DNA from: Methanoregula boonei 6A8
Lineage (GTDB): Archaea > Halobacteriota > Methanomicrobia > Methanomicrobiales > Methanospirillaceae
Length of the DNA stretch: 64,000 nt
Reading direction: 5' to 3'
NCBI RefSeq assembly: GCF_000017625.1
Contig: NC_009712.1
Location: 1,612,001 to 1,676,000 of the forward strand
This document shows, in pieces, positions 1 through 16,871 of this stretch. The position numbers were made by a program, and so were the translations under genes. Positions within the stretch are counted from its first letter, which is position 1. The number at the start of each line of letters is the position of its first letter. The notes under the pieces were generated by a model. The model did no database searches. It worked only from the letters and a program-made list of their open reading frames with translations, and was not told the DNA's origin.

Positions 1-94
1 TTTTTGTCCAGGTTCTGCCAGGTTGTCTGCAGTCCGGTTCTCTTTTTCTTTTAAAAAAAAATTGACAACCGGCCAGACCTCACAGAACCCTGTC

Positions 95-104: not shown

Positions 105-180
105 CCCGTTTGGCACAAAAAAACAACAGAAGATACAATACCTGTCTTGTTTGTCCGGACAGGTCAGGAGGGAAAGAACC

Positions 181-1679: not shown

Positions 1680-2141
1680 TCAACGCTGGTGGCTCGCGGT
1701 AAGAACCAGTCCCGCTTTCCTGATCAGGTAATAGCCTGCCCCAAGACCTACCACGATAACGCCTATTCCCATCAGTTCAATCCCGTACTCGATCCCACTC
1801 ATGCCTGTTGGATCGAGCAGGATCACACTCCGTGCCACCGCAATAATTGCAAGGATAAGAACGATCTCCACGTGGATCTCTTTTTCCCGGAAGTACGCCT
1901 TGATGGTATCGAGCAATTCCACTCCAATAAGGATGAGAAGGAAGGACCCAAGCACCGAGATCACCTCCTGCACAGCATTAAGCTCGTGAGCTTCCAGTTG
2001 GGCAGAGTTGCCGGTTGCAAGCGATAAAACCAGGAAATACCCGAGATCTACGATAGCGACAATGATCACGGCAATCAGCATGAACATCAGGCCGGCATAG
2101 ATAACTTTCTCAAACTTTTCGACAGCATCTATGATATCCAT
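1680..2141 (-). CDS. PsiE-family membrane protein
   Basis: A 153-residue integral membrane protein with four hydrophobic segments (roughly residues 13-40, 58-80, 93-110 and 120-143). The loop between the second and third carries a charged KAYFREKEIHVE stretch. The arrangement and the LLILIGVELLDTIKAYF segment resemble the phosphate-starvation-inducible PsiE family, whose molecular role is unknown. GAGGT lies 7 bases before the ATG. It follows the 110-residue gene at 2181-2513 by about 40 bases on the same strand, so the two probably share a transcript. The family assignment is from memory of its conserved pattern. Confidence 0.75.
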   Translation of the reverse strand: MDIIDAVEKFEKVIYAGLMFMLIAVIIVAIVDLGYFLVLSLATGNSAQLEAHELNAVQEVISVLGSFLLILIGVELLDTIKAYFREKEIHVEIVLILAIIAVARSVILLDPTGMSGIEYGIELMGIGVIVVGLGAGYYLIRKAGLVLTASHQR

Positions 2142-2180
2142 CAGGTATACCTCATACGACCCTTTCCCAAAAGACGCTCT

Positions 2181-2513
2181 TTAGGTATTTTTTGTACTCT
2201 CTTCAAGGTCCCGGATCCAACTCGCAACAGCCCGGAGCACGGTGATGGTCTTTTCGGTCTTGTGGAGTTTTCCGGTCTGGGTAAAAATCCCGTCATTATT
2301 CTGCGAGATCACTTCGCTTATCACCCATACGCCGAAGGGATCAGCCCTCACGGAAAGACCCCCGGAAAAGCCCGGGCAGTTGATGAAGAGTTCTCCCGAT
2401 TCATAGTCAATGTCAATTTTTAGTTTGCGGTCATCAGTCTGTACCATCTTTTTCAGATACACGGACAGGTCGTGTGTTGTCAGGATCGTTTCAACATCTT
2501 CTGGTCGTAACAT
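2181..2513 (-). CDS. Hypothetical protein, 110 aa
   Basis: I do not recognise this soluble 110-residue acidic/basic mixed protein. It begins MLRPEDVETILTTHDL and ends in a helical segment rich in charged residues. The middle has alternating short strands (KLKIDIDYESGELFINCPG, SVRADPFGVWVISEVIS), suggesting a small alpha/beta fold. The frame stays open upstream to 2639, but that extension is arginine-rich and unlike the rest. I therefore prefer the ATG at 2513, which has a weak GATGAG before it. It lies directly upstream of the PsiE-like gene on the same strand. No function can be inferred. Confidence 0.6.
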   Translation of the reverse strand: MLRPEDVETILTTHDLSVYLKKMVQTDDRKLKIDIDYESGELFINCPGFSGGLSVRADPFGVWVISEVISQNNDGIFTQTGKLHKTEKTITVLRAVASWIRDLEESTKNT

Positions 2514-2645
2514 ACGTTTCTCATCTCGTTTACTGCGGTTTGGGACAGTCCCTGCATGCTCCTTTTGGGAGATCCAAAAAAGGAGCGTTTCTTTTGTCAC
2601 CCTCTGATACGGGGCCCCGGTCCGGCCAGGGAAAGGCACACAATG

Positions 2646-2918
2646 TTAAGATTGCCCGGTCTGTGTCATCTTCTTTGAGGGCCTGATGGTCGAAGGCGGG
2701 TTGGTATGGGCCGGGAGCTCGTCGCCATGGAGACGGGAATGGGCATCATGCCGGGGAGAAAGCACCGGTTTTACCTGCGGGTGGTGGGCTGCATGGGGAG
2801 GATTTGCGGGGTGGTGGCGTTCCCCTTCCCTGTTGCGTTCCTGGTCCTGCCCGGCGGATGAACCGCGGTGCGACTGCGGGTCGCGGGTATGTGTTTTGGG
2901 ATCGTGGTGTGGTGACAT
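2646..2918 (-). CDS. Small His/Pro/Arg-rich hydrophilic protein
   Basis: A 90-residue low-complexity ORF rich in His, Pro, Arg and Ser, with HPANPPHAAHHPQ-type stretches and no hydrophobic segment. The start is supported by GGGAG 8 bases upstream of the ATG. It looks intrinsically disordered. Histidine clusters could bind metal, but this is only a possibility. The composition also fits a chance ORF in GC-rich DNA, so the call rests mainly on the ribosome binding site and on its place at the head of a same-strand run (2513, 2141). Confidence 0.35.
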   Translation of the reverse strand: MSPHHDPKTHTRDPQSHRGSSAGQDQERNREGERHHPANPPHAAHHPQVKPVLSPRHDAHSRLHGDELPAHTNPPSTIRPSKKMTQTGQS

Positions 2919-3118
2919 AGGCAATACTCCCGCTGCCTGCTGATAAAACAATGTATAAATACAAGGCTTGTGGGGGAAAGAAAAATGTATTACCGCCAGG
3001 ACCGGTCTCCTGCATCACGGACAGGCCGTTTGTAAAATCCCCTTGGCTCAGGGGACCACGAAAAAAGACCGGATGGGCACCGTAATTTTTTTTACTAACC
3101 GGACCGGGTATGCACCAT

Positions 3119-3277
3119 TCAGGCAACCGGCATTTCCGGCATCATAGTCAGGAGTTCATTCCGGTCAATCTCAGGGTGCCGGGAGAGATACTCTAAAATT
3201 GCTGCCCTGCGCACTTCCGCAGATGCGTGGGTCGCACAAATGTGTATAAGTTCCAGGCTTGTTTTGAGAGCCATCAT
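3119..3277 (-). CDS. Small hypothetical protein, 52 aa
   Basis: A 52-codon ORF starting with a double ATG (3277 and 3274), preceded by GGTGAT about 4-7 bases upstream. The product starts MMALKTSLELIHICATHA and ends in a short Met/Glu/Pro tail. The segment ASAEVRRAAILEYLSRHPEI has the pattern of a single HEAT-like helical hairpin. A stem of TCCCCT with AGGGGA near 3038-3055, followed on this strand by T-rich sequence, could be its terminator. No relative is recognised. Confidence 0.5.
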   Translation of the reverse strand: MMALKTSLELIHICATHASAEVRRAAILEYLSRHPEIDRNELLTMMPEMPVA

Positions 3278-3416
3278 AACCGATCACCCCCTCTTTAGTA
3301 CGGGGAATTATTTCAGGATTCCCGACGGATCGGTCACGAGAGGTATACCCTGCACTATAGACTCAATAGGAAATTTTGTGCCCCGGTAGCGCCGGGGGAC
3401 TTTGGCCTGAGGGGGA

Positions 3417-3650
3417 TTATTGTTTTACACCGGCCGACTGTTGTCTGCCGCAATCTATGGTAAGGAAAATTCCCAACGCCAGGAAGAACAACCCGCCAAC
3501 TAAGAAAATGAGAAGCATCAGGTGTGCTGCTTCACCGGTATAACCAAAGGTAATGTTCAACCCGCAGAAGAGGAGGAAGAGCACACCCATCCCGATACAA
3601 CAGAGACTTTCCCCCACCCGATAGAGCAAATCCCAGCAATCGTCGGTCAT
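3417..3650 (-). CDS. Small membrane protein with two transmembrane helices
   Basis: A 77-residue protein starting MTDDCWDLLYRVGE with two clear hydrophobic helices (about residues 16-35 and 44-66) and a short charged, Gln-rich tail. The ATG at 3650 has GGTG 10 bases upstream. An in-frame TTG at 3656 is also possible. A CCCCGG/CCGGGG stem at about 3381-3397 lies just past its 3' end and may terminate it. The function is unknown. Confidence 0.5.
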   Translation of the reverse strand: MTDDCWDLLYRVGESLCCIGMGVLFLLFCGLNITFGYTGEAAHLMLLIFLVGGLFFLALGIFLTIDCGRQQSAGVKQ

Positions 3651-3911
3651 CTGCAAAATTCACCAGCGATGAAGAAGTGATTTTTCCACTGGATGTATTC
3701 AATGTTGGGTTTTGTCTGGTACGCTGATGTATCCGGGGGTGAAGAACAGTGGCTGGCACGTTTTTTTTTAGCCGGGCGGGGTGACACTGCAGGTTTCCGG
3801 AGATCCTTCTAATCCCTGTGAACGGGAAGTGCCCCGGCTCCCGGCGGGATGTATCCTGTGGGAAAGCGGGAATAAGAAACCTCATTATCTTCCGGAAAAA
3901 AAGACTCTTTC

Positions 3912-4805
3912 ATGGAACAAGCAGAGAGAGCCCGTGATCTCCCCGGGAACCACACCCGGTCCGGGCCCAGCCTGACTGCGGAACGGGTGGCTGCATTCCG
4001 GGCAGCCGAATCAGCGCTGCAGGAGGATCAGAGGGTATGCTACGATCCGTATGCGATCCGGTTTACTGATCCCGATCACCTTGACGAGCTGACAGAATAT
4101 ACCGACAACCATTTCCCCGGGCTCCGGAATTATATTGCTGCACGGGCCCGGCATTTTGACGATGTCATTACTCTTGCGGCAAAGACCGGGCTCGAACAGC
4201 TGGTGATCCTGGGTGCTGGGTACGATACCCGGGCGTACCGGATCGCGGAGTTTAAGGGCCGCGTGCGGGTCTTTGAACTCGATCATCCCGATACCCAGGA
4301 GGTAAAAAAAGAGAAGATTGAGGAACTTTTCAGAGGGCTTCCCAAAGATGTCGTGTATGTCCCGGTGGATCTTGAGACGCAGGACTGGGGCCGCCGTCTG
4401 CTGGAAGCCGGGTATTCCCCGGAGAAAAAGACCCTGTTTGTCATGGAAGGACTGATCATGTACCTCACTCCCACGGCCATTGATGCGATCCTGTCCTTTG
4501 TGGTCAATAACTCCGGCAAAAACAGTGCCGTGCTCTTTGATTATCCGGCAGAGACCGGTGACACTGATGCCTCATCCCGGGAGATGAGAGAAGATCTCGG
4601 GAACCATACCGCCCGGCATGGCGAACCGATCCTGTTTTCCATGCCAAAGGAAGGCCCGGGAGCATTCCTCCGCGCCCGGGGCTTTTCCCGGCTCAGGATT
4701 ACAACCGGGGAGGAGTACCGTGGCCTGTATTTCAACCGGAAAAAGGAAGGACGGGAACTCCTCACTACGTCATCGTTTATGTATGCAGTAAGAGGGGACC
4801 GGTAA
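3912..4805 (+). CDS. SAM-dependent methyltransferase, TIGR00027/LCM type
   Basis: A 297-residue class I methyltransferase of the leucine-carboxyl-methyltransferase-like family (TIGR00027, PF04072). Visible motifs are the SAM loop ILGAGYDTRAYR (about residues 96-107), the acidic FELDHPDTQEVK strand end that binds the ribose, VPVDLETQDW, and the FVMEGLIMYL segment after motif IV. Members methylate carboxyl or hydroxyl groups of small molecules, and the substrate here is unknown. The start is the first ATG of the frame, without an obvious ribosome binding site. A T8 run follows closely at 4823-4830. It appears monocistronic. Confidence 0.85.
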   Translation: MEQAERARDLPGNHTRSGPSLTAERVAAFRAAESALQEDQRVCYDPYAIRFTDPDHLDELTEYTDNHFPGLRNYIAARARHFDDVITLAAKTGLEQLVILGAGYDTRAYRIAEFKGRVRVFELDHPDTQEVKKEKIEELFRGLPKDVVYVPVDLETQDWGRRLLEAGYSPEKKTLFVMEGLIMYLTPTAIDAILSFVVNNSGKNSAVLFDYPAETGDTDASSREMREDLGNHTARHGEPILFSMPKEGPGAFLRARGFSRLRITTGEEYRGLYFNRKKEGRELLTTSSFMYAVRGDR

Positions 4806-4822
4806 AAGAAACCGGGAATTCC

Positions 4823-4830
4823 TTTTTTTT
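4823..4830 (+). terminator. T8 terminator after the methyltransferase
   Basis: Eight consecutive T residues lie 18 bases after the stop of the preceding plus-strand gene, the usual form of an archaeal intrinsic terminator. Confidence 0.55.
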
Positions 4831-5007
4831 AGAGAATGAGATTTTCCCTAAGAATTTTCATCGTATAACAATACGTGGGGACAATCCCCGGGTCCCGTGA
4901 ACGTATCAGCACCCCATTACGGGGAGAATACGTGGCCGGATCATTTCGAATACAACAATCCAGGTTCTGTTTTTGGATTTGCACGGGATTTGGCCGTAAA
5001 AACGGGT

Positions 5008-5017
5008 AAATATATTT
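5008..5017 (+). promoter_or_regulatory. TATA box of the cupredoxin-like lipoprotein gene
   Basis: AAATATATTT is centred about 31 bases before the ATG at 5044. Archaeal transcription usually starts 24-28 bases past the box, so the message would have almost no leader. This agrees with the lack of a ribosome binding site before that ATG. Confidence 0.5.
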
Positions 5018-5043
5018 ATTGTGGAAAATTTAGTATACACTAT

Positions 5044-5568
5044 ATGAAACTGCTCATGGGATTTATCGTCCTTCTTGTCGCACTGGTGGCGGTCACCGGT
5101 TGCACCCAGACCGCATCGCCTTCAGTACAGACCACAACCGCAACAACTGCTCCGGCAACTACTGCGGTCACAACGGTGACAACTGCCGTTCCCACAACGA
5201 TTGCAACCACAGTACCGGTAAACACTACTGCTGAGGAAACCCTGTCCTGGGAGGCCACACCCACCCCGGCATCCATGGTCACGATCATCCATCTGACGAG
5301 CGCCGGGTTCACTCCTGAAACCGATATCGTCCTGCCGGGCACCAGTGTCTTCTTTGCGAACAATGACAATGTCACCCACACGATCGTAGGCATCGGTAAC
5401 AGCACCGGCACGTTCAACTCAGGTGAGATTATCCCGGGTTCAGCATTCCCGTACACATTTGGTATAAAATCGGGGATCCTTTACTATGGTCTGGCAGACA
5501 ATGCCTCAGTGATGGGGACCATTATCGTCCAGCCGCCTTCCGGTACAACAACGTATCACTCAGCGTAG
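5044..5568 (+). CDS. Lipoprotein with Thr-rich linker and cupredoxin-like domain
   Basis: A 174-residue exported protein. Residues 1-20 form a hydrophobic signal ending in VTGC, a lipobox, so the mature protein is probably lipid-anchored outside the cell. A Thr/Ala/Val-rich linker (about residues 22-65) leads to a beta-rich domain resembling small blue copper proteins (FFANNDNVTHTIVG; then YYGLADNASVMGTIIV). The first His ligand and the final Met are present, but the Cys and second His expected in the YCGLHPxM loop are replaced. Copper binding is therefore doubtful. The upstream in-frame start at 4897 is rejected because the signal peptide begins at 5044. T5 and T7 runs follow the stop. Confidence 0.7.
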   Translation: MKLLMGFIVLLVALVAVTGCTQTASPSVQTTTATTAPATTAVTTVTTAVPTTIATTVPVNTTAEETLSWEATPTPASMVTIIHLTSAGFTPETDIVLPGTSVFFANNDNVTHTIVGIGNSTGTFNSGEIIPGSAFPYTFGIKSGILYYGLADNASVMGTIIVQPPSGTTTYHSA

Positions 5569-5587
5569 TTAAGATCCTTATCCACTC

Positions 5588-5601
5588 TTTTTGGTTTTTT
5601 T
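5588..5601 (+). terminator. Double T-run terminator
   Basis: T5 and T7 runs separated by GG lie 20 bases after the lipoprotein stop codon. Confidence 0.5.
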
Positions 5602-5701
5602 CCCAAAGGGCAGCTTTCGTGCTCCGGGCCATTTCCCCCGGGCCGGATCTTTTCAATGTGAGGTTCTGGTGCCTGCACAAAAACGGATTTTGAAAAACCG
5701 G

Positions 5702-6049
5702 TTACTTTGTTCCAAGCCAGGTTCTCACGGAACCGGAACCAAGCGTGGGGAGATCCAGCAGGGGTATTCCTTCCGGCTCGTTGTCCAGAATTTCTTCACA
5801 TTTAACGATAATCGGGGGGTTGCCATCCAAAAAGAATGCGACAACCTTACTCCCCCGGGGAACTGACGTGTGCCGGAAAATGACTTTTTTGCCGGTTTTG
5901 GTAAAAAGGATAACCAGCTTTTTGTCCGTATTTTCCGGGTCGGGCATTATCACCGCGTACTTCCCGCCAACCTCGAGTGCATACGCCTGAGTTTCATTCT
6001 CCGTATCCCCGATCCCGGAACTGATACTGTCTGAAATTACGTTGGTCAT
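5702..6049 (-). CDS. Hypothetical protein, 115 aa
   Basis: A soluble protein of about 115 residues that I do not recognise. It is beta-rich (EVGGKYAVIMPDPENTDKKL, KKVIFRHTSVPRGSKVVAF) with a Pro/Leu-rich C terminus. The start is uncertain. The ATG at 6049 has GGGAGG 13 bases upstream, slightly far, and a GTG ten codons earlier (6079) is possible. It is convergent with the lipoprotein gene. No motif points to a function. Confidence 0.55.
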   Translation of the reverse strand: MTNVISDSISSGIGDTENETQAYALEVGGKYAVIMPDPENTDKKLVILFTKTGKKVIFRHTSVPRGSKVVAFFLDGNPPIIVKCEEILDNEPEGIPLLDLPTLGSGSVRTWLGTK

Positions 6050-6274
6050 CAGATTTTTTCGGCCTCCCTGCCGTACCACAACAAAAACATCCTTTCTTTA
6101 CCGTCACATAAATTAGTTCTGATTGCTGCAACAGGTCTTGTATAGTATTTTGGATTAACTGTGATCCTGGCAGATTTTCTTTACAAGAAGAGGAGAATCT
6201 GCTTGGGGACCAGTAGAAGAGCCGGCCAGATCAAGGACGACGGGGAGTCGGGCAAAGCGGGAATAGATCCCGAT

Positions 6275-6600
6275 GGTAACCCGCCCCATTCCAGGGAAAA
6301 CAAAACCGGGTTTGATTTGCCCGTTTTTTGTAACCCACTCCGGAAAAGATCCTCATATTCGGCTTTTTTTTTGGCGTTTCAGTGACCAGACGGGTAAAAA
6401 CAGGGGTCAAAATTAACCTCGGCTTTAAGGCCCCTGGTGGCTCATAGCTGACATCGGAATCAGCCGTATTTTGGCATACGGGGCCGATAAAAGGCTTATT
6501 TTCCCCGCGAAGTAAAAAAGAGCCATGTACAGGCATTTCCGGAACCGGTCCGGATCCAAAAAAAGGGAATCGGAGCCCTATTCGGGCTTATTTTTCCCTG
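6275..6600 (+). repeat. Dispersed ~300-bp repeat, copy R1 (most diverged)
   Basis: The first of five copies (6.3, 11.3, 45.3, 59.0 and 62.6 kb) of an intergenic repeat. Shared landmarks in order are a CAAAACxGGG stretch, CCGGAAAAGATCCTCATATT, a GGTCAAAATTA-CTCG element, GGCCCCTGGTGGCTCATAGC (consensus GGGCCCTTGGTGGCC-ATAGCTGACATCG), a short hairpin, then CGGATCCAAAA and GGAATCGGAGCCC. Here the hairpin reads GCCGTATTTTGGCATACGG instead of the consensus CGAAATCGGGCGAATTTCG. The copy ends immediately before the 3' end of the small gene at 6618-6905. Confidence 0.8.
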
Positions 6601-6617
6601 ACCCCGGTACTACCCTG

Positions 6618-6905
6618 CTACAGGGTTTCCCGGAGGGCTGCGAGGTCTTTTTCTATCCTGCCGATAAGTTTCTCGCCTTTGTTCTCTTTCTTTTCGGAAT
6701 TTTTTATCCGGGGGTGTCGGGAGATTTCGTACTTTACAAAAACCTCTCCATCCGTGCTGACATGGATATTATGAAGGACCTGTGCATCCCGGAGTTTATC
6801 AAAATCCCCAATCCCGTTCTTTGCAAGGTTCTCACGGATTTTTCTGACTTTTCCCTGTTCGTACACGCTCAGGTTTTTTGATCCTTTGGGTCGTCCTCGT
6901 GGCAT
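6618..6905 (-). CDS. Small basic protein with AT-hook-like N terminus
   Basis: A 95-residue basic protein starting MPRGRPKGSKNLS. The GRP core with flanking basic residues resembles an AT-hook, suggesting minor-groove DNA binding. The rest is a charged helical region (EQGKVRKIRENLAKNG), a short beta part (IHVSTDGEVFVKYEI) and a Lys/Glu-rich tail ending DLAALRETL. The ATG at 6905 lies about 30 bases after AT-rich TATA-like DNA and has no ribosome binding site, which suggests a leaderless message. Its 3' end abuts repeat R1. A frameshifted relative abuts repeat R2 at 11.6 kb, so gene and repeat appear to form a unit. The function is unknown. Confidence 0.55.
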   Translation of the reverse strand: MPRGRPKGSKNLSVYEQGKVRKIRENLAKNGIGDFDKLRDAQVLHNIHVSTDGEVFVKYEISRHPRIKNSEKKENKGEKLIGRIEKDLAALRETL

Positions 6906-6929
6906 GGGAAAAAATTGTAGATTATTCAT

Positions 6930-7270
6930 TAAATATTTTTTTGGTCCTTTTTGCCAAAATGCTACTAATACATTGCCGGTTTACAGGATTTTTACAAAAT
7001 AAAAAAAAGCCCCGGGGGAATTTTCTGCTAAAAAATCCATAGGATACATGAAGGAAACCCCTGTTTTCCGGATCGGGAGTACGCAAAGGAGAGTTCCGGG
7101 GAACTCAGTTTTGCCGGGCAGGACCGGGTATGTACTGATTGAACGGACCTTTGGGCCGGAACGGTTACCTGATTCGTGCTTTTCCGGAACCGGGAGGCAC
7201 AAGGAACATCCTTGTAAGAAACGAGACAGGGGATTACCTTAAAGCCCCTTTGTGAGGCTTGGGGAGATTT
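6930..7270. other. Non-coding interval, 340 bases
   Basis: I see no convincing gene. The left end is AT-rich and probably holds the promoter of the small gene at 6905. Near 7235-7262, AAGCC pairs with GGCTT across a short loop just past the 3' end of the PAS regulator gene, which may act as its terminator. Confidence 0.4.
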
Positions 7271-8119
7271 TCAGGTCAGGGTATCATTGTCTGCCCGGAA
7301 GATCGATTCTTCCTCTGCTTTGTGCTCAGTCATGTCCGTACCGATGCTAAACATTCCGATCAATTCGCCTTTTTTATCGTAGATTGGTTTGTTACTCCAC
7401 CGGATCCAGACCCGGGTACCGTCTTTGGTGATATTCTCATTCTCATTGGCCTGGTGATTTTCCGGATGCGTGAGGATATTTTCAATCATGTATTCGAGAT
7501 CGCGTTCTGAACCCGATTCCTTGTCCGGGACAATGGTTCCCACCAGCGGTTTTCCGATAACTTCGTGGTGATCAAAGCCGAAAAACCGGTGGCCGGATTC
7601 ATTGAAGTAGGTTATTTTCCCGGATTTATCCCATTTCAGGATTATCCGGACCGGTTCCCCGATTTCAGCCCGGTGTTTCATTACTGCTTTTTTGAGCTGA
7701 TCGGCACTGGTCACCGTAGGGGAAACGAGAAAGACCTGGCTTTTCACCTGGTAAATCTTGACTTTTTTCCCTTTAACGCTGTACCGGGTCCTGGAGATCT
7801 CCAGAACTCCGGCTTTTGTAAGATTCACGATATGATACTTGGCAGCGTTCATGGATATTTCAAGCCGATTGGCAATATCAGACAGGCTGAGCGGTCCTTC
7901 GGAGGACAGGAGCTGAACCACAACCCCTGCAGTCTTGTGGGAGATCGCCCGTATGATATTCTGAGTGTTCTCGTCACCCGGCTCTAAGAAGACCGCATCT
8001 TCCATGGTGCCGGCCACTTCTCTCTTTGTCGGGATTTGATCGGAGTTCCCGCCAAAATCACGAAGGCCGGATGACGGGTCGCCAGGTTTCCTTTCACTCA
8101 GATCTCGTTCTTCGCCCAT
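7271..8119 (-). CDS. Winged-helix transcription regulator with C-terminal PAS domain
   Basis: A 282-residue one-component regulator. Residues about 45-125 form an ArsR-like winged helix (PLSLSDIANRLEISMNAAKYHIVNLTKAG as recognition helices, then a SVKGKKVKIYQ wing). Residues about 155-270 are a PAS domain (ILKWDKSGKITYFNESGHRFFGF; C-terminal IGMFSIGTDMTE). It most likely senses a small ligand or redox state and controls transcription in the cytoplasm. The start is uncertain between the ATG at 8119 and a GTG at 8128, and neither has a strong ribosome binding site. The first 40 residues are low-complexity. No partner gene is adjacent, so its targets are unknown. Confidence 0.8.
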   Translation of the reverse strand: MGEERDLSERKPGDPSSGLRDFGGNSDQIPTKREVAGTMEDAVFLEPGDENTQNIIRAISHKTAGVVVQLLSSEGPLSLSDIANRLEISMNAAKYHIVNLTKAGVLEISRTRYSVKGKKVKIYQVKSQVFLVSPTVTSADQLKKAVMKHRAEIGEPVRIILKWDKSGKITYFNESGHRFFGFDHHEVIGKPLVGTIVPDKESGSERDLEYMIENILTHPENHQANENENITKDGTRVWIRWSNKPIYDKKGELIGMFSIGTDMTEHKAEEESIFRADNDTLT

Positions 8120-8852
8120 AAGGACCACATGCCTGCTTTTGGTTTTCTTCTCTCACAGGTTATCATTGGTGCCCGGGGAGATTTTACACCCCTTTCCCGG
8201 CCGGCTTTTGCGTTCCTGTGATGATTCATGAGACCCATATCGGCGGGACCCGGATTTTTTTCAGGGTAAAAAACCCCGATGTTGTTTAACCGGGGTACAC
8301 TTTTCACAGGAATTAATATACTGAAATCAGCATTCGGGATAATAAACACCACCCTGATGAGCCACTCCGGTGAAAGAGTTCCTGAGTAAAAACCTGTTTT
8401 TGCCTGTTTTGGGATCTCCTGCCCGTCCACCGGCGGATCTCTCTACGGGCCCTGTGCTCCCAAATGTCCGATCCGGCATGAGAGTAGGCCTTGTTACGTC
8501 TTTTTGGGGGTTGCAATAAGCCTTTATCGGGGAAATATATCGCCACCCGCAGACGTTACCGTGCTGTGAAGGGCTGTATATTCAGATATTTTCGGCTATC
8601 ATCCGATTGGCCGAACCATGCGTTGAAATATACGGGATTGCGGGTATAATCCCCGTTTCCTTTTTTGACCCGGTGACTGCAAATTTTTTTCACTCAACGA
8701 CGGCCTTATTCTTCCGGCATGCGATGTTAGCTCATAAAATCCCGGTGCTGTTTTCATCTGCGGCGGGGAGTGGATTTTCCCTTCGGGGAAATAAACCCGT
8801 TAACTGCGGACGCCAGATACAGGCCGTAACGATAGGGATAGGGAGGAAACAC
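8120..8852. other. Long intergenic region upstream of the S-layer-like gene
   Basis: About 730 bases without a convincing gene. The last 270 bases before the ATG at 8853 contain two stems: TTCGGC (8591-8596) with GCCGAA (8610-8615), and a TTTTCCC/GGGGAAA hairpin near 8774-8792. TATA-like patches occur around 8525-8545. The segment may be a long structured leader. The open frames here lack ribosome binding sites and homology. Confidence 0.4.
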
Positions 8853-9764
8853 ATGACCAGACAATCTATGTTTGCACTCTGTACGCTGGGTCTGTTGGTT
8901 CTTGTCGCAGCAGTGCCCGTATCGGCAACCTGCTATGCTATCAACAACACGATTACCGTCCCGGGTGCGACAGTGTTTATTGGAGAACAGCAACTGAACC
9001 TGAACAACTTAACCGCATCTGACCCGCTCCTGAAGTCAGACGACGCGATCGGCTGGTGGGCGTCCGCAGCATCGCCTGCTACCTCTGCACCTGCGCGATC
9101 CTACCGTTTGAGTAACCTTGACCTGGGATCTTTTTATGTCTCTCCTGCTGCCTTTGGGAATTGGCCGGGCAACTGGTATGGTATGAAGAATGGAATGTGG
9201 GACGGCGGGCCTGCACTCTTCTCGGTACAGGATCCCCGTGTCTCTCTCGACATCTGGGATCTTTCCACCGCAACCACAGTAACCGGCGGTACGGTGCACA
9301 GGGGAGATTACCTTGCGTTCCGTATCAGCACGAACATGCAGTCTGCACTTGACCCGGCCAAACGCGGCCAGAGTGCTACCGGTGCCGAGGCGGGTAACTT
9401 CGATCTCCAGGTAAAGGGTCCCACCGGCATCACGTACACTGAGCTGCTCAGCGGCACGGGTTCCGATGCTACGAGCCTTACGTCTCAGAATGCCAATCTC
9501 CCGTTGTGGTTCTGGGGAACAAAGGACGCAAAGGTCCCGTCATCCTCCAACGCAGCAGCCAACTGGTCGACCGGTGCAGTCGATCAGACCGGACAAAATG
9601 CCTACCCGTCCGGTGTGTACACCGTTACCGCCCGCTCCCGGCTTAACGGCATGTATGATAACTATCAAAATGGCGGCGCAACATACACCGGTAAGACCGT
9701 CAGCCAGCCCGCAACGGTCAGTATTTCCGTACCCCGTAACCCGGTGATTCCGGAGACTTCCTGA
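8853..9764 (+). CDS. Secreted surface (S-layer-like, DUF3821-type) protein
   Basis: A 303-residue exported protein. A 26-residue signal peptide (hydrophobic core LCTLGLLVLVAAVPVSA) precedes a beta-rich region beginning with VPGATVFIGEQQLNL. This opening recalls the DUF3821 surface proteins of Methanomicrobiales. Several NXS/T sites could be N-glycosylated. There is no C-terminal membrane anchor, the chain ending ...RNPVIPETS, so the protein is secreted or held by other contacts. GGAGG at 8842-8846 clearly supports the ATG at 8853, and the longer upstream frame is rejected. A T9 run follows the stop. The family assignment is from memory. Confidence 0.75.
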   Translation: MTRQSMFALCTLGLLVLVAAVPVSATCYAINNTITVPGATVFIGEQQLNLNNLTASDPLLKSDDAIGWWASAASPATSAPARSYRLSNLDLGSFYVSPAAFGNWPGNWYGMKNGMWDGGPALFSVQDPRVSLDIWDLSTATTVTGGTVHRGDYLAFRISTNMQSALDPAKRGQSATGAEAGNFDLQVKGPTGITYTELLSGTGSDATSLTSQNANLPLWFWGTKDAKVPSSSNAAANWSTGAVDQTGQNAYPSGVYTVTARSRLNGMYDNYQNGGATYTGKTVSQPATVSISVPRNPVIPETS

Positions 9765-9765
9765 A

Positions 9766-9774
9766 TTTTTTTTT
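9766..9774 (+). terminator. T9 terminator after the surface protein gene
   Basis: Nine T residues start two bases after the stop codon. Confidence 0.6.
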
Positions 9775-9847
9775 CGTTTACCCATTTTTTCCTTGTATGC
9801 AGATAAAAGGAAAACACGTGGCCGATTCTTAAAAATAATACCGGTGA

Positions 9848-10984
9848 TCATGCCTTTTTGAGCTCGGCCACTTTCAGGATATCGGAACGGGTGACAATAC
9901 CGATGATCCTGCCGTCCTGAGCTATGGGGATCCTCCCGATATTGCGGGCTGACATGATTCTTAAGGCGTCCATGACCGGTGCAGATGGCGGAAGGGTAAC
10001 CGGATCGCGGGTCATGATGTCGCGGACCTGCTTTGCCTCGCGATCGGCCGGTGAGATACGGTTCACATCCACAAGCGTGATCATTCCTACAAGTTTGTCA
10101 TGTTCGACAACCGGGAAACCTAGGTGCTTGGTGGAAAGCATCATCTCTGCCACCTTTGAAAGTGAGAGGGCCGGTGTCACGGACGTTACCGGAGAACTCA
10201 TCGTGCTCTCTGCCGTAACGTTGTGCAACAGGTAGGTGAACTGGTCCATGGTTGCTTCCGAGCCTGCCCCGATGTAGACAAAAAGTGCGATAAGGATCAG
10301 GAACGGGTTGAAGAATAACAGGCCGATGATGCCAAAAATAATGGCAAACCCCTTACCAATATTGGCAGCAATCCGGGTCGCCTTGTGGACGGGCATTCGT
10401 TGTGCCAGTGCCGCCCGGAGTACCCTGCCGCCATCCATGGGAAATGCCGGGATCAGGTTAAATGCAAAGAGAAGGATGTTAAGCACGGCAACGTACCCGA
10501 AGATAAAAATGAGGATGCCGGCGATCGCGGGATAAGGGGTCATTCCCGGGACAAGGTAGACGAGACCGGCGCATACGAGACCGAAGAGAAGGCTGGTGAA
10601 TGGCCCGACCAGTGCCATGGGGAGCTCAACTTTCGGATCCGGTACTCCTTCTTCCTCCATCCGGGAGACACCACCGAACATGAGCAGGGTGATACTCTGG
10701 ATCCTCACACCCTTTTTCCTGGCAACAATGCAATGGGCGATTTCGTGGACCAGAACTCCCAAAAAAAGCCCGAGTGCGACGATGGTGCCGAGGATCCATG
10801 GCATGAATCCCGCCGTGATCAGGGTGGTATCTATGGGAACCTGGAAAATATACTGGATCGTAGTTGTGGTAAGTGCGATCTGGATTCCGATGATCCACGC
10901 TAAAAGGGGGATAACAATCAGAAACGAAAAATGGATCAGAACAGGAATGCCAAAGAGCCGTCCAATCTTATAGGAGCCGTTCAT
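9848..10984 (-). CDS. Site-2 protease family zinc metalloprotease with two CBS domains
   Basis: A 378-residue integral membrane protease of peptidase family M50. The zinc motif HEIAH lies in the third hydrophobic segment (about residues 81-85). The second metal-site motif NLIPAFPMDGGR lies near residue 180. Both are intact, so the enzyme should be active. Residues about 250-375 form two CBS domains (MSSPVTSVTPALSLSKVAEMM; IMTRDPVTLPPSAPVMDALR), which commonly bind adenine nucleotides and could gate cleavage. The substrate is unknown. It is convergent with the surface protein gene. Confidence 0.9.
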   Translation of the reverse strand: MNGSYKIGRLFGIPVLIHFSFLIVIPLLAWIIGIQIALTTTTIQYIFQVPIDTTLITAGFMPWILGTIVALGLFLGVLVHEIAHCIVARKKGVRIQSITLLMFGGVSRMEEEGVPDPKVELPMALVGPFTSLLFGLVCAGLVYLVPGMTPYPAIAGILIFIFGYVAVLNILLFAFNLIPAFPMDGGRVLRAALAQRMPVHKATRIAANIGKGFAIIFGIIGLLFFNPFLILIALFVYIGAGSEATMDQFTYLLHNVTAESTMSSPVTSVTPALSLSKVAEMMLSTKHLGFPVVEHDKLVGMITLVDVNRISPADREAKQVRDIMTRDPVTLPPSAPVMDALRIMSARNIGRIPIAQDGRIIGIVTRSDILKVAELKKA

Positions 10985-11282
10985 TATGCAGGGATAATCG
11001 CCCGGGAAGTTATACTTTTAGATATGGCCATTTTTTTAGCCCTTTCCACGGGTCAGGGATTAATTGAATTTCTTCACTTCCGATAAAATATCCGATCCCT
11101 CTTCAGGGTAACAGAGCCATGGGGGGGAGGGAGTACCCTTCTCTCCCTGCCGGGCGGTGAAATAAATCGACATCGTACCCCCCGGGAACAGGAACAGATA
11201 CCTGAGTCTTTGAAATCAGTGTAGCTATCGGAGTGTAAAAAGAGCATGATGCAAAAGAAGCATAACCTACATCCTTATCGGA

Positions 11283-11572
11283 TACTCCTGTTTTTCCACC
11301 CCCTCCCCCGGAAAAAATTTCCTCAAATTCGGCCTTTTTTGGCCTTTTCTGGTATCGGATGGGAAAAAGCACAGGTCAAAATTTGCCTCGATTCCAGGGC
11401 CCTTGGTGGCCAAAAGCTGACATCGAAATCGGGCGAATTTCGGCAAACGGAGCCCAATTCGGGCTTATTTTTCACGCGAACTGAAACGGAGCGTTTTACG
11501 GGCTTTTCCGGAACAGGTCCGGATCCAAAAAAGGGAATCGGAGCCCGATTTGGGCTTATTTTTCCCTGGACC
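11283..11572 (+). repeat. Dispersed ~300-bp repeat, copy R2
   Basis: Second copy, same orientation as R1 and R3. It contains CCGGAAAAAATTTCCTCAAATT, the core GGGCCCTTGGTGGCC-AAAGCTGACATCG (11398-11425), the CGAAATCGGGCGAATTTCG hairpin (11424-11442) and the distal CGGATCCAAAAAAGGGAATCGGAGCCC block. It lies between the S2P protease and flavin reductase genes and runs straight into the frameshifted relative of the small gene that follows R1. Confidence 0.85.
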
Positions 11573-11720
11573 GGGTACTGGCCCAGAACAGGGCATCCCG
11601 GAGGGCTGCAAGGTCCTTTTCCATCCTGCCGATAAGTTTCCCGTCCTTGTTGTCTTTCTTTTCGGAATTTTTATCCGGGGATGCCGGGAAACTTCTGCAG
11701 GTTTCCCGTTTGTTAAAATG
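11556..11720 (-). pseudogene. Frameshifted 3' remnant of the gene at 6618-6905
   Basis: On the minus strand one frame encodes AEVSRHPRIK and the next encodes SEKKDNKDGKLIGRMEKDLA followed by ALRDALFW. Both match the 3' half of the protein at 6618-6905 (ISRHPRIK; SEKKENKGEKLIGRIEKDLA; ALRETL). The frames meet at a T run near 11670 that is one base shorter than in the intact copy. The 5' half, including the RGRPKGSKN motif, is missing. The original stop is also lost, extending the frame to 11556. It is a decayed copy and is not expected to make the full protein. Confidence 0.65.
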
Positions 11721-11821
11721 TATAATTCACCGGTTTTTCCACAAAATCCCGTCAGGCTGTCGGGATCCTCCAAAGATACCTTTAACCTCCACCCGTACAA
11801 ACAGCAGCAAAGAGAGGAATC

Positions 11822-12382
11822 ATGGATAAAATCACGCTCGGCCCGATGCCGTATATGAGTGTCCTGCCCACGGTGATCGTGGGTGCAAATGTGGACGGAA
11901 AAGCAAACTACATGACCGCCGGGGCGGCAACGATCGCCTGCATAGCTCCGCCCATGGTCTGCGTTGCGCTCAACAAGGCCCGGTACACGGTGAAGGGAAT
12001 TGGTGAGAACAAGACATTCAGCCTGAATATACCGTCAGCCAGGCTGGCAGTTGAGACCGACTACTGCGGTATTGTATCCGGGGCCACGGAGGACAAGTCC
12101 GGGGTCTTTGGGTCGTTCTACGGCACGCTGAAAACTGCACCCATGGCAGAGGAATGCCCGGTCAATATCGAGTGCAAACTCTTCAAAGCCATTGACTGCG
12201 GGAGCCACCTGCTGCATATAGGCGAGGTTGTCGAGGTCTACGCCGACAAGGGCTGCATAACTGACAAAAAACCGGATGTCGCAAAGATAAACCCGATCTT
12301 ACTTTCCCAGTCCACCTATTTCGATATCGGAAAACAGGTCGAAAAGGCATTCTCGGCCGGAAAGAAATACCGGAAAAAGTAA
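11822..12382 (+). CDS. Flavin reductase-like FMN-binding protein
   Basis: A 186-residue split-barrel flavoprotein of the flavin reductase-like family. The N-terminal strands PTVIVGANVDGKANYMTAG, the PPMVCVALNK segment and the FSLNIPSARL stretch are typical of archaeal members, which bind FMN and transfer electrons between nicotinamide cofactors, flavins and iron proteins. It is cytoplasmic. The ATG at 11822 is preceded by GAGAGGAATC. It stands alone between repeat R2 and the convergent RNase HI gene, so its redox partner cannot be read from context. Confidence 0.85.
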   Translation: MDKITLGPMPYMSVLPTVIVGANVDGKANYMTAGAATIACIAPPMVCVALNKARYTVKGIGENKTFSLNIPSARLAVETDYCGIVSGATEDKSGVFGSFYGTLKTAPMAEECPVNIECKLFKAIDCGSHLLHIGEVVEVYADKGCITDKKPDVAKINPILLSQSTYFDIGKQVEKAFSAGKKYRKK

Positions 12383-12547
12383 GATCGGGATTATCCCCCC
12401 CACCACCTGCTGCGTTGTTGCCGGGTCCGGGACCCTCACGTTTCTTACCGGGCAACAGGCAGCCCGGAAGGGGGGGGGGCCGGGACTTCCAGCCATGCCC
12501 CGGAAGGGAACTATCCTCTCAGGATCCGGTCCCGGTAAATCCCGGGC

Positions 12548-12991
12548 TCACACCTCCGTTTCCCGGTCCAAAGCCCGATTGCAGAGTTCATCACAACGCC
12601 GGATAAAAATATTTTCCCGGGGTACATTCCGGAAATGAAGATCAGTAAAATTTTTTTCTAAGAGCGCAAGTTCTGCCCGGAGCTGGGCAAGATGTGGTTT
12701 TGTGATACGGTACTGGTTATTGATCTGCTTTATCACGAGCTCGCTGTCGGAATAGACAAGTATTGATTCACTGGCAAATTCAGTTGCCTTTTTTAGTGCC
12801 GACAGGATCGCGTAATATTCAGCAGTATTATTGGTGGCCGTTCCGATCGTTCTGGCTTCTTCAAAGATAATCTCATTATTCCTGACAAAGATGAACCCGT
12901 ATGCCGCGAGCCCCGGATTTCCCCGCGAGGCCCCATCAGTATACACCGTAAGGGTGGGAGAGGCGGACTTTTCTGAATGAGAACCAGACAT
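12548..12991 (-). CDS. Ribonuclease HI family protein
   Basis: A 147-residue RNase H-fold protein related to archaeal/bacterial RNase HI, which cuts RNA in RNA-DNA hybrids. The acidic metal-binding residues are visible in YTDGASRGNPG (first Asp), NNTAEYYAIL (Glu), YSDSELVIKQ (second Asp) and RRCDELCNRA (last Asp). The basic handle of E. coli RNase HI is missing, as is usual in these short forms. Three in-frame ATGs (13012, 12997, 12991) could serve and none has a clear ribosome binding site. I take the last because the domain starts soon after it. Confidence 0.85.
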   Translation of the reverse strand: MSGSHSEKSASPTLTVYTDGASRGNPGLAAYGFIFVRNNEIIFEEARTIGTATNNTAEYYAILSALKKATEFASESILVYSDSELVIKQINNQYRITKPHLAQLRAELALLEKNFTDLHFRNVPRENIFIRRCDELCNRALDRETEV

Positions 12992-13132
12992 TACCATGAA
13001 CGAGAGCAGCATGAGGGAAAAAGGTGACGGGATTACAACTCACCACACATCGAGGTTTGAAATAATGTACCGCGAAGTTCGTCTCCCTGTTTTCATTGAA
13101 TCCCCCCACCATGCTACACATTAGCACACACC

Positions 13133-13140
13133 ATTATATA
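13133..13140. promoter_or_regulatory. TATA element between rnhA-like gene and aro leader
   Basis: ATTATATA is the strongest TATA-like sequence in the divergent interval. It is nearly symmetrical, so it could serve either side. On the plus strand it would start RNA near 13163, giving a transcript that includes a CCC-GAGGG/CCCTC-GGG stem with a T6 loop (13186-13209) and then the aromatic leader ORF. A second candidate box, CTTTATCT (13215-13222), would start RNA close to the leader ATG. Confidence 0.4.
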
Positions 13141-13248
13141 CCCCCAGTTCCATACAAATGATCATGCAGGAAGGATGCGTCCGCACCCGTGAGGGTTTTT
13201 TCCCTCGGGAATGTCTTTATCTCTGAAAGCGAGAGCACCGTCCGGAGC

Positions 13249-13359
13249 ATGAACAGTTCCGTTTCTGAAAACCCAAGCGTGACGAGCCTGTGCTATCGCG
13301 CTTCCGGCTATTTTGGTTTTAGCTGTTTCGGTTTTGGGTATTATCCCTGGTACCGGTAA
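13249..13359 (+). CDS. Aromatic-rich leader peptide of the aro operon, 36 aa
   Basis: A 36-codon ORF between the promoter region and the first aro gene. Ten of its last 21 codons encode aromatic residues: Tyr at 16, 21, 31, 32 and 35, Phe at 22, 24, 27 and 29, Trp at 34. All three end products of the downstream pathway are thus represented. The final stretch is FGFGYYPWYR followed by TAA. The stem at 13360-13397 begins with the base after the stop codon, so a ribosome paused at the last Trp/Tyr codons would cover its left arm. GGAG at 13244-13247 is very close to the ATG; alternatively the message is nearly leaderless from CTTTATCT at 13215-13222. Function as a charging sensor is inferred by analogy with bacterial attenuators. 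Confidence 0.7.
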   Translation: MNSSVSENPSVTSLCYRASGYFGFSCFGFGYYPWYR

Positions 13360-13397
13360 GCCCCTTCGCCGCTGATCATGCATTGGTTCGAAGGGGC
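13360..13397 (+). promoter_or_regulatory. Leader hairpin (9-bp perfect stem) before the aro operon
   Basis: GCCCCTTCG (13360-13368) pairs perfectly with CGAAGGGGC (13389-13397) around a 20-base loop. A competing pairing is possible between GCGCTTC inside the leader ORF (13298-13304) and GGGGCGC (13393-13399), using two G-U pairs. This would make the two structures mutually exclusive. No T run follows, so termination on the usual archaeal T tract is not obvious. The remaining 75 bases to the first aro gene contain two copies of TTGTTGATTG. Confidence 0.6.
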
Positions 13398-13472
13398 GCT
13401 GCTGATTGTTGTTGATTGAGAGTTACTGATTCACCCATTGTTGATTGTTTAAAAAAAAGGAGTGGTAAAATT

Positions 13473-14261
13473 ATGAGAGGAAAGGAAATTCGCCTGGAAA
13501 GGATCATGAACCGCAATACGAAAAAAACGATCATCGTGCCAATGGATCACGGGGTCTCTGACGGGCCGATACCGGGCCTGATCGATATGGGCCAGACCGT
13601 GAACCTGATCGCGGACGGCGGGGCAAACGCGGTGATCGGCCACGTGGGCCTTGCACTGCACGGCCACCGCCAGGGCGGCCGGGACATCGGCCTTATCCTG
13701 CACCTGTCGGCAAGCACGAAACTTGCACCGGACCCAAACGAGAAGGTGCTCGTGAACTCGGTCACGAATGCGCTCAAGATGGGCGCCGATGCGGTCTCGA
13801 TGCACGTGAACATCGGCGCCGAGTCCGAGGCAACGATGCTCTCCGATCTCGGCACGGTCGCAGTCGAGTGCATGGAATGGGGGATGCCGCTCCTTGCGAT
13901 GATGTACCCACGCGGGAAGAACATCAAGACGAATAACGATCTCGACCAGGTCAAGCTCGCGGCCCGGGTAGCAGCGGAGCTCGGCGCTGATATTGTAAAG
14001 ACCGTGTACACCGGCGACCCTGAGTCCTTCCGCGAAGTGACCCGGGGCTGCCCGGTGCCGGTGGTGGTTGCCGGAGGTTCAAAGACGGATGACCGCACAA
14101 CACTGGAATTAATAGAAGGCGCGATGGCAGGCGGTGCGGCCGGGATCTCGATTGGCCGCAATGCCTTCCAGCACCGGACCCCGGACAAATTTGTCCGGGC
14201 AGCGGCCTGTATCGTGCACCAGAACAAGAGCGTGGAAGAAGCGCTCAAAATCCTCGGGTAA
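13473..14261 (+). CDS. 2-amino-3,7-dideoxy-D-threo-hept-6-ulosonate synthase, copy 1
   Basis: First enzyme of the archaeal shikimate route (MJ0400 type), a class I aldolase-like TIM barrel of 262 residues. It joins 6-deoxy-5-ketofructose phosphate with aspartate semialdehyde. Catalytic landmarks are present: VPMDHG (Asp), MMYPRGKN (Tyr) and [10 protein letters not shown] (Schiff-base Lys). AAGGAG at 13457-13462 supports the ATG at 13473, and the in-frame upstream extension is rejected. It opens an operon of eight genes and is followed 10 bases later by a paralogue. Expression is probably governed by the leader ORF and hairpin immediately upstream. Confidence 0.93.
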
Positions 14262-14271
14262 GGTGGCAGTC

Positions 14272-15054
14272 ATGATTGGAAAAGATATCAGGATCGAACG
14301 GATCATTGACCGGAACACGGGACGGGCCGTGATCATTCCCATGGACCACGGTTTTTCCATGGGCCAGATTGACGGCCTGCTGGACATGACCAAAGTGATC
14401 ACAGACGTGAGCGAGGGCGGCGCAAACGCGATCGTGCTCCACAAGGGCATGGTCAAGCGCGGCCACCGCAAGCACGGCAGGGACATCGGGCTGATTGTGC
14501 ACCTCTCGGGCAGTACCTCGCTCAACCCGGACCCGAATGACAAGGTGCTGGTCTGCACGGTCGAAGAGGCAATCGCGCTCGGCGCTGATGCGGTCTCTAT
14601 CCACATCAATCTCGGTGCGCCCAATGAATCCAAGATGCTCGAAGACGGTGCAAGGATCGTCCGGGACTGCAACCGCTGGGGCATGCCGCTTCTCGTGATG
14701 ATCTACCCGAGGGGCAAAGGCATCGACCCGTCATCCCCGCAGACCGTGGGCCACTGTGTACGCGTGGCTGAAGAGCTCGGCGCTGACTTAATCAAGACCA
14801 CGTACCCGGGCAGCCCCGAGGCATTTGCACGGATCACGAAAGCCTGCTCGGTGCCGGTCTTTGTGGCAGGCGGCGAAAAGTGCAGCGACCTTGAATCGTT
14901 GGAGATGATCCGGGACTCGGTTGCTGCCGGCGGTGCGGGCGTTTGCATGGGACGAAACGCGTTCCAGCGCGAAAACACCCGTGCGTTTGTCCACTCCATC
15001 TGCCGCGTTGTCCATCACAACGTTGATCCAAAGAAGGCGCTGGAGCAGCCGTAA
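14272..15054 (+). CDS. 2-amino-3,7-dideoxy-D-threo-hept-6-ulosonate synthase, copy 2
   Basis: A 260-residue paralogue of the preceding gene with the same catalytic landmarks (IPMDHGFSMG, MIYPRGKG, DLIKTTYPG) intact. AAGGTGG before the ATG at 14272 gives the start. The two proteins align end to end from MxGKxIRxERIxxRNT onward but have clearly diverged, so this is an old tandem duplication. One copy may be specialised for another aldol reaction or differ in feedback behaviour. The stop codon directly touches the ATG of the DHQ synthase II gene. Confidence 0.93.
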   Translation: MIGKDIRIERIIDRNTGRAVIIPMDHGFSMGQIDGLLDMTKVITDVSEGGANAIVLHKGMVKRGHRKHGRDIGLIVHLSGSTSLNPDPNDKVLVCTVEEAIALGADAVSIHINLGAPNESKMLEDGARIVRDCNRWGMPLLVMIYPRGKGIDPSSPQTVGHCVRVAEELGADLIKTTYPGSPEAFARITKACSVPVFVAGGEKCSDLESLEMIRDSVAAGGAGVCMGRNAFQRENTRAFVHSICRVVHHNVDPKKALEQP

Positions 15055-16044
15055 ATGAAGCAGTTCTGGGTGGATGCCCGGCCGTGGAACAAGGATGTTG
15101 TGACCACCGCCATTGAGAGCGGTGCGGATGCGGTGGTGGCAGAGAAGGCAGCAGATGTAAAGCGTCTTGGCCGGATCACGACCGTTGCCCCGGACGGCGA
15201 TCTTGTCCCGGGGAAAGACGTGATCGAGTGCACGATCACGGATAAGGCAAGCGAGAACGAGGCGGCAGCGAATGGCAAAAACAGGATCGTGATCGTGACC
15301 ACGAGCGACTGGACGGTCATCCCGCTCGAAAACCTGGTGGCCCAGTCGGATAAGATCATTGCGGAGGTAAAAAACGTGCACGAGGCAGAGCTTGCCATCC
15401 ACGTACTCGAAAAGGGCGTGTACGGGATCCTCTTAAAGACCAGCGACCCTGCGGTGGTAAAAGCCGTTGCTGCGCTTGTCAAGAGCACCTCCGGCAGCGT
15501 GCAGCTCGTTCCCTTCACGGTTACAAAGATCCATCCCGTGGGCATGGGCGACCGGGTCTGCGTGGACACCTGCTCGATGCTTGCCGATGGCGACGGTATG
15601 CTGATGGGTAACACCTCGTCTGCCATGCTTCTTGTCCATGCGGAGACGCTCGAAAACCCGTATGTGGCCCCCCGCCCGTTCCGGGTAAACGCCGGCGCCG
15701 TGCATGCCTACATCCTGCTCCCGGACGGGAAGACCGCGTACCTTGCCGATCTCAGTATTGGCGGACAGGTGCTCGTCTCTGATCACAAGGGCGCAGGGAG
15801 GTCCGCGATCGTGGGCCGGACGAAAATTGAGCGAAGGCCGCTCCTCCTTGTCGAGGCAACAGCCGAAGGCGGGGCAAAGGCAAGCCTCATCCTCCAGAAC
15901 GCAGAGACAATCCGGCTGGTGGCCCCCGACGGGAGCGCGATCTCGGTCGTGAACCTTGCACCCGGGAATAAGATCCTCGGCTGTGCCCTTGAAGGCGGCA
16001 GGCATTTTGGCATGGCCGTCAAAGAGACGATCCGCGAGAAATGA
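15055..16044 (+). CDS. 3-dehydroquinate synthase II
   Basis: A 329-residue archaeal-type 3-dehydroquinate synthase (MJ1249 family, sometimes called AroB'), unrelated to bacterial AroB. It oxidatively deaminates and cyclises the heptulosonate to 3-dehydroquinate using NAD. Recognisable segments are KQFWVDARPWNKDVVTTAIE at the N terminus, GVYGILLKTSDP, the GDRVCVDTCSMLADGDGMLM core and ASSAML-like GNTSSAMLLVHAET. The ATG abuts the stop of the previous gene. It overlaps tyrA by four bases. Confidence 0.95.
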   Translation: MKQFWVDARPWNKDVVTTAIESGADAVVAEKAADVKRLGRITTVAPDGDLVPGKDVIECTITDKASENEAAANGKNRIVIVTTSDWTVIPLENLVAQSDKIIAEVKNVHEAELAIHVLEKGVYGILLKTSDPAVVKAVAALVKSTSGSVQLVPFTVTKIHPVGMGDRVCVDTCSMLADGDGMLMGNTSSAMLLVHAETLENPYVAPRPFRVNAGAVHAYILLPDGKTAYLADLSIGGQVLVSDHKGAGRSAIVGRTKIERRPLLLVEATAEGGAKASLILQNAETIRLVAPDGSAISVVNLAPGNKILGCALEGGRHFGMAVKETIREK

Positions 16045-16871
16045 GCATGAAGGCAGGCATCATCGGCGGCACCGGCAAGATGGGAAAACTGTTCCGCCCT
16101 GTTTTTGAGCGGGCGGACTATGAGGTGATCGTATCCGGGCGGTCCACCGGGGTGACAAACGCAGAGATCGCGGAAACCTGCGATCTCGTGATTGTCTCGA
16201 TCCCCATCCGCGACACAATCCGGGTGATCGAAGAGATTGCCCCGCTCCTGAACGAAAGCCAGGTCCTCTGCGACTTCACCTCGCTCAAGGTGGCGCCGGT
16301 AGCGGCAATGCTCACATCCAGAGCGCAGGTGATCGGGCTCCACCCGATGTTTGGGCCCACCGTCTCATCCATTGCCCGCCAGACCATTGTGATGTGCCCG
16401 GCGCGGGTTACCGGGACAACGCTCTCCGATCTCCGGCACATTTTCCTGCGCGAAGGGGCAGTCTGCACGATTGCAACCCCGGAGGAGCATGACCGGATGA
16501 TGGCGATCGTCCAGGGGCTCACCCACTTTGTCACGATCTGCATGGCCGACTCTATCCGCCGCCTTGGCGTGGACATAGAAAAGACCGAACCGTTCATGAG
16601 CCCGGTGTACCAGATCGAGCTCTCGCTTGTGGGCCGGCTCCTCTCACAGGACCCGGCGCTCTACGCAGATATCCTGCAGGAAAACCCGTTTGTGCCCGAA
16701 GTCCTTGCCGCGTGCAGGGCTGCGGCCGCCGACCTTGCAGGCATTGTTGCCTCCGGCGATCCCGAAGCATTCGCGGAGTTTTTCTCCCGGGACACGGAGC
16801 ACCTTGGCACCTATTGCAAACGCGGGCAGGTGCTCACCGACACCCTGATCGAATGCATGGTGAAGAAATGA
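16041..16871 (+). CDS. tyrA: Prephenate dehydrogenase
   Basis: A 276-residue NAD(P)-dependent prephenate dehydrogenase making 4-hydroxyphenylpyruvate for tyrosine. The Rossmann motif GIIGGTGKMGKLF is at the N terminus. LHPMFGPTVSS carries the active-site His, and a helical C-terminal half follows (YQIELSLVGRLL). There is no chorismate mutase or ACT domain. It overlaps the previous gene by ATGA, and its own stop overlaps the pheA start. An in-frame ATG two codons later (16047) is an equally good start. Confidence 0.9.
   Translation: MSMKAGIIGGTGKMGKLFRPVFERADYEVIVSGRSTGVTNAEIAETCDLVIVSIPIRDTIRVIEEIAPLLNESQVLCDFTSLKVAPVAAMLTSRAQVIGLHPMFGPTVSSIARQTIVMCPARVTGTTLSDLRHIFLREGAVCTIATPEEHDRMMAIVQGLTHFVTICMADSIRRLGVDIEKTEPFMSPVYQIELSLVGRLLSQDPALYADILQENPFVPEVLAACRAAAADLAGIVASGDPEAFAEFFSRDTEHLGTYCKRGQVLTDTLIECMVKK

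Follow-up and report, generated by a model that had tools for sequence, protein, structure and literature searches.

A dispersed intergenic repeat family in Methanoregula boonei and its relatives as a probable site of flanking-module exchange

Two neighboring copies of a noncoding repeat in Methanoregula boonei 6A8 adjoin related copies of one small gene, encoding a protein with the stretch RGRPKGSKN, which raises the question of whether repeat and gene travel together as a single mobile unit. The window that we analyzed is a 64,000-nucleotide stretch (bases 1612001-1676000) of the single-contig, 2,542,943-bp genome, and it contains five repeat copies, R1-R5 (Table 1), whose profile E-values of 1e-67 to 1e-80 exclude chance matches. 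The original prediction was that of a composite element, consisting of the repeat plus the gene, from which gene-free derivatives arose. Our data do not support such an autonomous element as a general unit. Instead, we think it more probable than any other reading that R1-R5 belong to a dispersed intergenic repeat family at which ectopic recombination exchanges flanking modules, with the RGRPKGSKN gene as a passenger.

Table 1. Repeat copies and associated genes in the window and MarR-linked repeat loci in other genomes
Feature	Location	Strand	Basis
R1, full-length repeat	window 6329-6612	+	profile match (hmm 3-287 of 293), E 3.5e-67
R2, full-length repeat	window 11299-11576	+	profile match, E 2.4e-80
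R3, repeat without gene	window 45372-45649	+	profile match, E 2.5e-78
R4, repeat without gene	window 59052-59331	-	profile match, E 8.3e-77
R5, repeat without gene, 88% identical to R4	window 62607-62891	-	profile match, E 1.1e-72; pairwise identity
95-aa RGRPKGSKN gene, most likely passenger (copy 1), 3' end toward the 3' edge of R1	window 6618-6905	-	translation, 11-row alignment
RGRPKGSKN gene remnant, 5'-truncated, frameshifted	window 11589-11695	-	protein match to residues 67-95; DNA homology with R1 reaching 11695
MarR-linked repeat loci	L101:953-1324; G163:C128:6399 and 10396; G195:C1:420212 and 347328; G158:2394305		

The RGRPKGSKN gene and its neighbors

The local arrangement is as originally predicted. 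The stop codon of the gene, which encodes 95 aa on the minus strand, lies 5 nt from the 3' edge of R1, and the relative that abuts R2 keeps only residues 67-95 (76% identity; genome positions 1623589-1623675, i.e., window 11589-11675), its frameshift being marked by a T-run beside the surviving part that is one T shorter. Similarity continues unbroken from repeat into gene (R1 and R2 are 79% identical over 391 columns, the R2 side being window 11308-11695), and at R3-R5 the match to the repeat ends before the gene. Further analysis of the M. boonei genome revealed two intact gene copies that the original prediction had missed. One is a third repeat-plus-gene copy (C380; genome positions 380743-381312; 82% protein identity), and the other lies at positions 612786-613067 (55% identity) with no repeat beside it, as the only one of the three intact copies in this genome to do so. 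The homology around the repeat extends from -35 to +588 between R1 and C380 and from 15 to 402 between R1 and R2. Repeat and gene were thus duplicated together at three places in the M. boonei genome, and to that extent the composite unit stands; the part that lacks support is the role of the gene as the autonomous member of a composite element. The gene order around R1 and R2 is not conserved (window 1-19900 compared with six genomes).

We found homologs of the protein in 9 of the 232 genomes from the order, and these 9 belong to one genus. The gene has four loci in the M. boonei genome (three intact and one remnant), and elsewhere we found two full-length relatives (54-55% identity) and six shorter ones that match the protein from residue 1 to about 61-67; two of the relatives from the protein search come from a Methanoregulaceae archaeon and from a Methanoregula sp. 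The repeat profile was run at E up to 10 over 16 gene loci, a set in which two genomes are represented twice and two protein hits are due to chance. The collected homologs adjoin the repeat at three of the four M. boonei loci and at none of the eight in other genomes; two of these eight lie close to a contig end, which leaves ~150 nt of 3' flank at one and ~60 nt of 5' flank at the other. Absence of the repeat from most homologs elsewhere is the outcome that the original prediction had named as refuting it, and an autonomous element with the RGRPKGSKN gene is accordingly rejected as a general rule.

The conserved core of the protein in an 11-row alignment is MPRGRP...YE..K...R, and we take its start, MPRGRPKGSKN, to resemble an AT-hook. 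Searches with the 95-aa protein gave no match in Pfam or PHROG and none below E 0.4 in PDB, and its AlphaFold model, built with 3 sequences, is poor (mean pLDDT 55).

A second small gene was found beside the repeat in other genomes. Of 30 MarR-family matches in ten genomes, seven lie 30-70 nt upstream of a repeat on the same strand, two of the seven being fragments, and members of this family also lie upstream at 8 full-length copies that we examined, some of these loci overlapping with the previous set. The protein (123 aa) matches Pfam MarR_2 with E 2.8e-7. One MarR relative, present as a single copy in most of these genomes, stands without an adjoining repeat. Neither this protein nor the RGRPKGSKN protein has a recognized recombinase domain in Pfam or PHROG searches. 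These observations support a repeated association of the repeat with small DNA-binding genes, with no mobility function implied; more generally, a gene that adjoins a repeat need not be the repeat's own gene. At five loci (L074, L077, L096, L103, and L111), a different conserved stretch, 100-400 nt long, lies upstream of the repeat; it is absent from the MarR-linked copies.

Spread, flanks, and orientation of the repeat family

Of wider interest than the original repeat-plus-gene reading is the repeat family itself, which is found at module junctions. The repeat is ~280 bp long, with a mean column identity of 71% and a mean pairwise identity of 0.64 among 51 aligned copies. A sequence-only model detects it in 43 of the 231 genomes searched from the order, and these belong to one family (Methanoregulaceae; 7 of 40 genera). 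It is thus far more common than the gene (9 of 232 genomes). The open-licence literature that we searched yielded no report of this repeat, and the accessible part of the RepRanger survey does not name Methanoregula (PMC12306157). The M. boonei genome contains 54 matches (E ≤ 1e-4), of which 10 are full-length and the rest truncated or weaker, and eight other genomes contain 24, 16, 17, 30, 2, 5, 21, and 5. Some 40 shorter or weaker relatives are scattered over the M. boonei genome (e.g., at 203377-203589, 93440-93668, and 1261484-1261716) and may represent a second subfamily.

By a simple longest-ORF gene call, the 52 full-length copies collected from many genomes are intergenic. Their orientation to neighboring genes is not fixed (15/15/14/8 among the 52), and a fixed gene-regulatory element is rejected on this ground. 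A coding relic is likewise rejected, since 41 copies have stops in all six frames. A viral or plasmid origin is rejected as well: the exact core is absent from viral contigs, and no distant match was found in phages or plasmids.

Comparison of the 52 copies in 993 pairs revealed that 946 pairs have no common flank of at least 100 nt. Among the 43 flank-sharing pairs, 37 share one side (20 upstream only and 17 downstream only) and 6 share both; 4 of the 993 pairs were too short to judge, and the pairs are not independent, several involving the same copies. R1, R2, and C380 account for three of the 17 downstream-only pairs, which makes the originally predicted unit an instance of a general pattern.

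The copies are also co-oriented within neighborhoods. More specifically, 44 of 52 pairs of neighboring copies within 30 kb point the same way; when genome G194 is left out, 38 of 45 pairs do so, a value reached in 12 of 5000 within-contig strand permutations. Entire arrays are co-oriented in G193 (12/12), on contig C1 of G195 (9/9), and in G140 (5/5), and copies are clustered in three of the five contigs tested.

The high copy number (54 in M. boonei and 2-30 in the eight other genomes) and the intergenic placement at unrelated loci, where most pairs share no flank, could also reflect a non-autonomous, MITE-like element that was inserted copy by copy, mobilized in trans now or formerly, with rearrangement being secondary. 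A duplicate at L103 that is 98.3% identical and begins at the 5' edge of the repeat points in the same direction. Indeed, MITEs and similar prokaryotic dispersed repeats are likewise short, noncoding, multicopy, and intergenic, whereas the repeat described here is longer, conserved across genera, and found in co-oriented clusters, with neither a terminal inverted repeat (TIR) nor a target-site duplication (TSD) signal nor a known parental IS. The TSD score, taken from the longest word shared by the two edges, was 4.91 versus 4.80 ± 0.12 in a control with mismatched copies, and three other windows gave similar results, although very old copies could have lost their TSDs. The 5' end compared with the reverse complement of the 3' end scored 7.53, against 6.77-7.56 for internal windows. 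In addition, the genome-wide search, which covered PF00589, returned no parental transposase, and no clean empty site was seen between G193 and G194. Taken with these results, a MITE-like origin appears rather unlikely.

REP/BIME elements are a further point of comparison, being likewise intergenic and multicopy with a palindromic part. The repeat studied here differs in that the whole ~280-bp unit is conserved in sequence and its copies are co-oriented; REPs within BIMEs are described as alternating in orientation (PMC2817692).

Repeat copies at synteny breaks and a relocated block

We compared the genomes G193 and G194, whose longer aligned blocks are ~95% identical. In 554 kb of G194 and 470 kb of G193, regions chosen for their clustered repeats, we found 14 synteny-block ends. 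Six of them, at five repeats or remnants, are no more than 120 bp away from a repeat, and only 10 of 20,000 circular shifts of the repeats reach that number; the other 8 ends are not at repeats. This formal test of breakpoints is based on a single genome pair and on the 554 kb of G194.

The comparison also uncovered a relocated module. A 23-kb block of G193 (C1 224505-247285) has a repeat copy at either end (224224 and 247285), the two being co-oriented. In G194, the block is placed at a repeat whose G193 position is -68675, followed by a further 5 kb, a 49-nt repeat remnant, and then the original right flank. The block belongs to a 110-kb G193 island with several repeats (207240-317826), to which one repeat plus ~3 kb corresponds in G194 (304615-307803). 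Ten proteins of the block were scanned, and most of their functions relate to ions and osmolytes: two Na/H exchangers, a K+ transporter, three MscS channels, a lysine 2,3-aminomutase, a P-type ATPase, a CLC channel, and one protein without a match. We also scanned ten proteins from outside the block (eight encoded elsewhere in the island, two at another locus), and these include kinases, transporters, a secretion protein, and a beta-lactamase-fold protein.

Of seven orthologous copies in G193 and G194, three keep both flanks, and in the other four the similarity ends on one side, at the repeat edge or close to it. In one of the three that keep both, the interior of the repeat is less alike (0.72-0.88) than its flanks (mostly 0.89-1.0). 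Junction copies resemble several other copies in turn and did not point to a single crossover position. In a third genome, G191, one copy, judging by match coordinates, lies at the junction of two blocks that are apart in other genomes, and several of these blocks adjoin a repeat. At G161:C48:10513 and G192:C1:2404005, the end of one conserved gene block is followed by a repeat oriented oppositely to that of G191, which suggests that this spot has been used more than once.

Exchange at the repeats and competing explanations

The one-sided flanks, the breaks at copies, the co-orientation, and the less-alike junction copies all agree with exchange between copies. According to the explanation that we favor, ectopic recombination between copies in loose, co-oriented clusters would join different flanking DNA at the copies, so that the blocks between them, from a few to some 25 kb, could be exchanged, lost, or relocated. 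The gene-plus-repeat pairs at R1, R2, and C380 would then have arisen because one flank stayed with the repeat while the other was exchanged, or because the repeat was copied together with that flank. Since one flank stays with its repeat in either case, the RGRPKGSKN gene is most likely a passenger rather than a mobility gene. We infer that the repeat would be the cause of exchange, although it may instead be a bystander at loci that are fragile or poor in genes, and that exchange would by default be homologous (RadA-type) rather than site-specific.

Several observations count against this explanation, among them the 8 block ends that are not at repeats and the three orthologous copies with both flanks retained. 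In addition, copies within G193 or G194 have an average identity of 0.60-0.62, which makes them poor substrates for homologous recombination except in a short conserved core, and a dedicated system may therefore operate instead. Moreover, that ~280 bp are conserved between genera implies some role beyond that of an exchange substrate alone. One such dedicated system would be an archaeal module-exchange machinery specific to the family, with the co-oriented ~280-bp repeats as docking sites, dedicated excision and re-insertion of niche-adaptive modules such as the 23-kb block, and MarR-type proteins as candidate regulators; we regard it as quite improbable.

Site-specific recombination, in which the repeat would be an attachment site for modules and the recombinase an XerA-like chromosomal or other enzyme, could likewise explain the co-oriented arrays of G193, G195, and G140, the relocated 23-kb module bounded by repeats, the strong conservation of the core, and exchange despite the low overall identity of the copies. 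In integron cassette arrays, co-oriented repeats (attC sites) delimit gene modules that differ between relatives, and in these respects the arrays described here are similar. They differ in that their modules are kilobases long and comprise several operons, the spacing within clusters is mostly 3-25 kb, the island examined has no integrase, and the ~280-bp repeat has no clear conserved pairing. In four genomes, only 1-4 integrases per genome exceed the Pfam cut-off, and integrase (PF00589) is absent from the G193 island (207-318 kb) and from the G194 region analyzed, the only matches above the cut-off in G193 (at 354644) and in G194 lying outside these blocks. Known Xer sites are also far shorter than ~280 bp, and the copies compared gave no defined crossover position. 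Collectively, these points make a site-specific mechanism highly unlikely.

An equally slim chance attaches to a cis-acting element or small-RNA gene that is conserved for its own function and reached the junctions by segmental duplication: although its conservation across genera (mean column identity 71%), a terminator-like 3' hairpin in the consensus, and relaxed consensus folding (-47.0, against -19.2 ± 3.6 after column shuffling, for 41 copies on the plus strand) speak for it, the consensus has almost no structure under standard RNAalifold settings (-0.36 kcal/mol, 5 pairs), the top covarying columns form no helices, Rfam returned no match up to E 1 in window 5800-12300, and the orientation to genes is not fixed. 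Overall, the signs of RNA structure are mixed and weak.

Methanoregula species are major methane producers of peatlands and wetlands. If the repeat does mark the exchange of adaptive modules, as our favored explanation of recombination between copies would have it, it would account for genome differences between close Methanoregula relatives and would offer a way to test how genomic islands of archaea are moved when no integrase of the phage or plasmid type is involved.

Within the window itself, a further repeat of 230 nt (83% identity) occurs at 59710-59939, upstream of R4, and at 62316-62546, directly downstream of R5, and from its placement the order around the R4-R5 segment is permuted.
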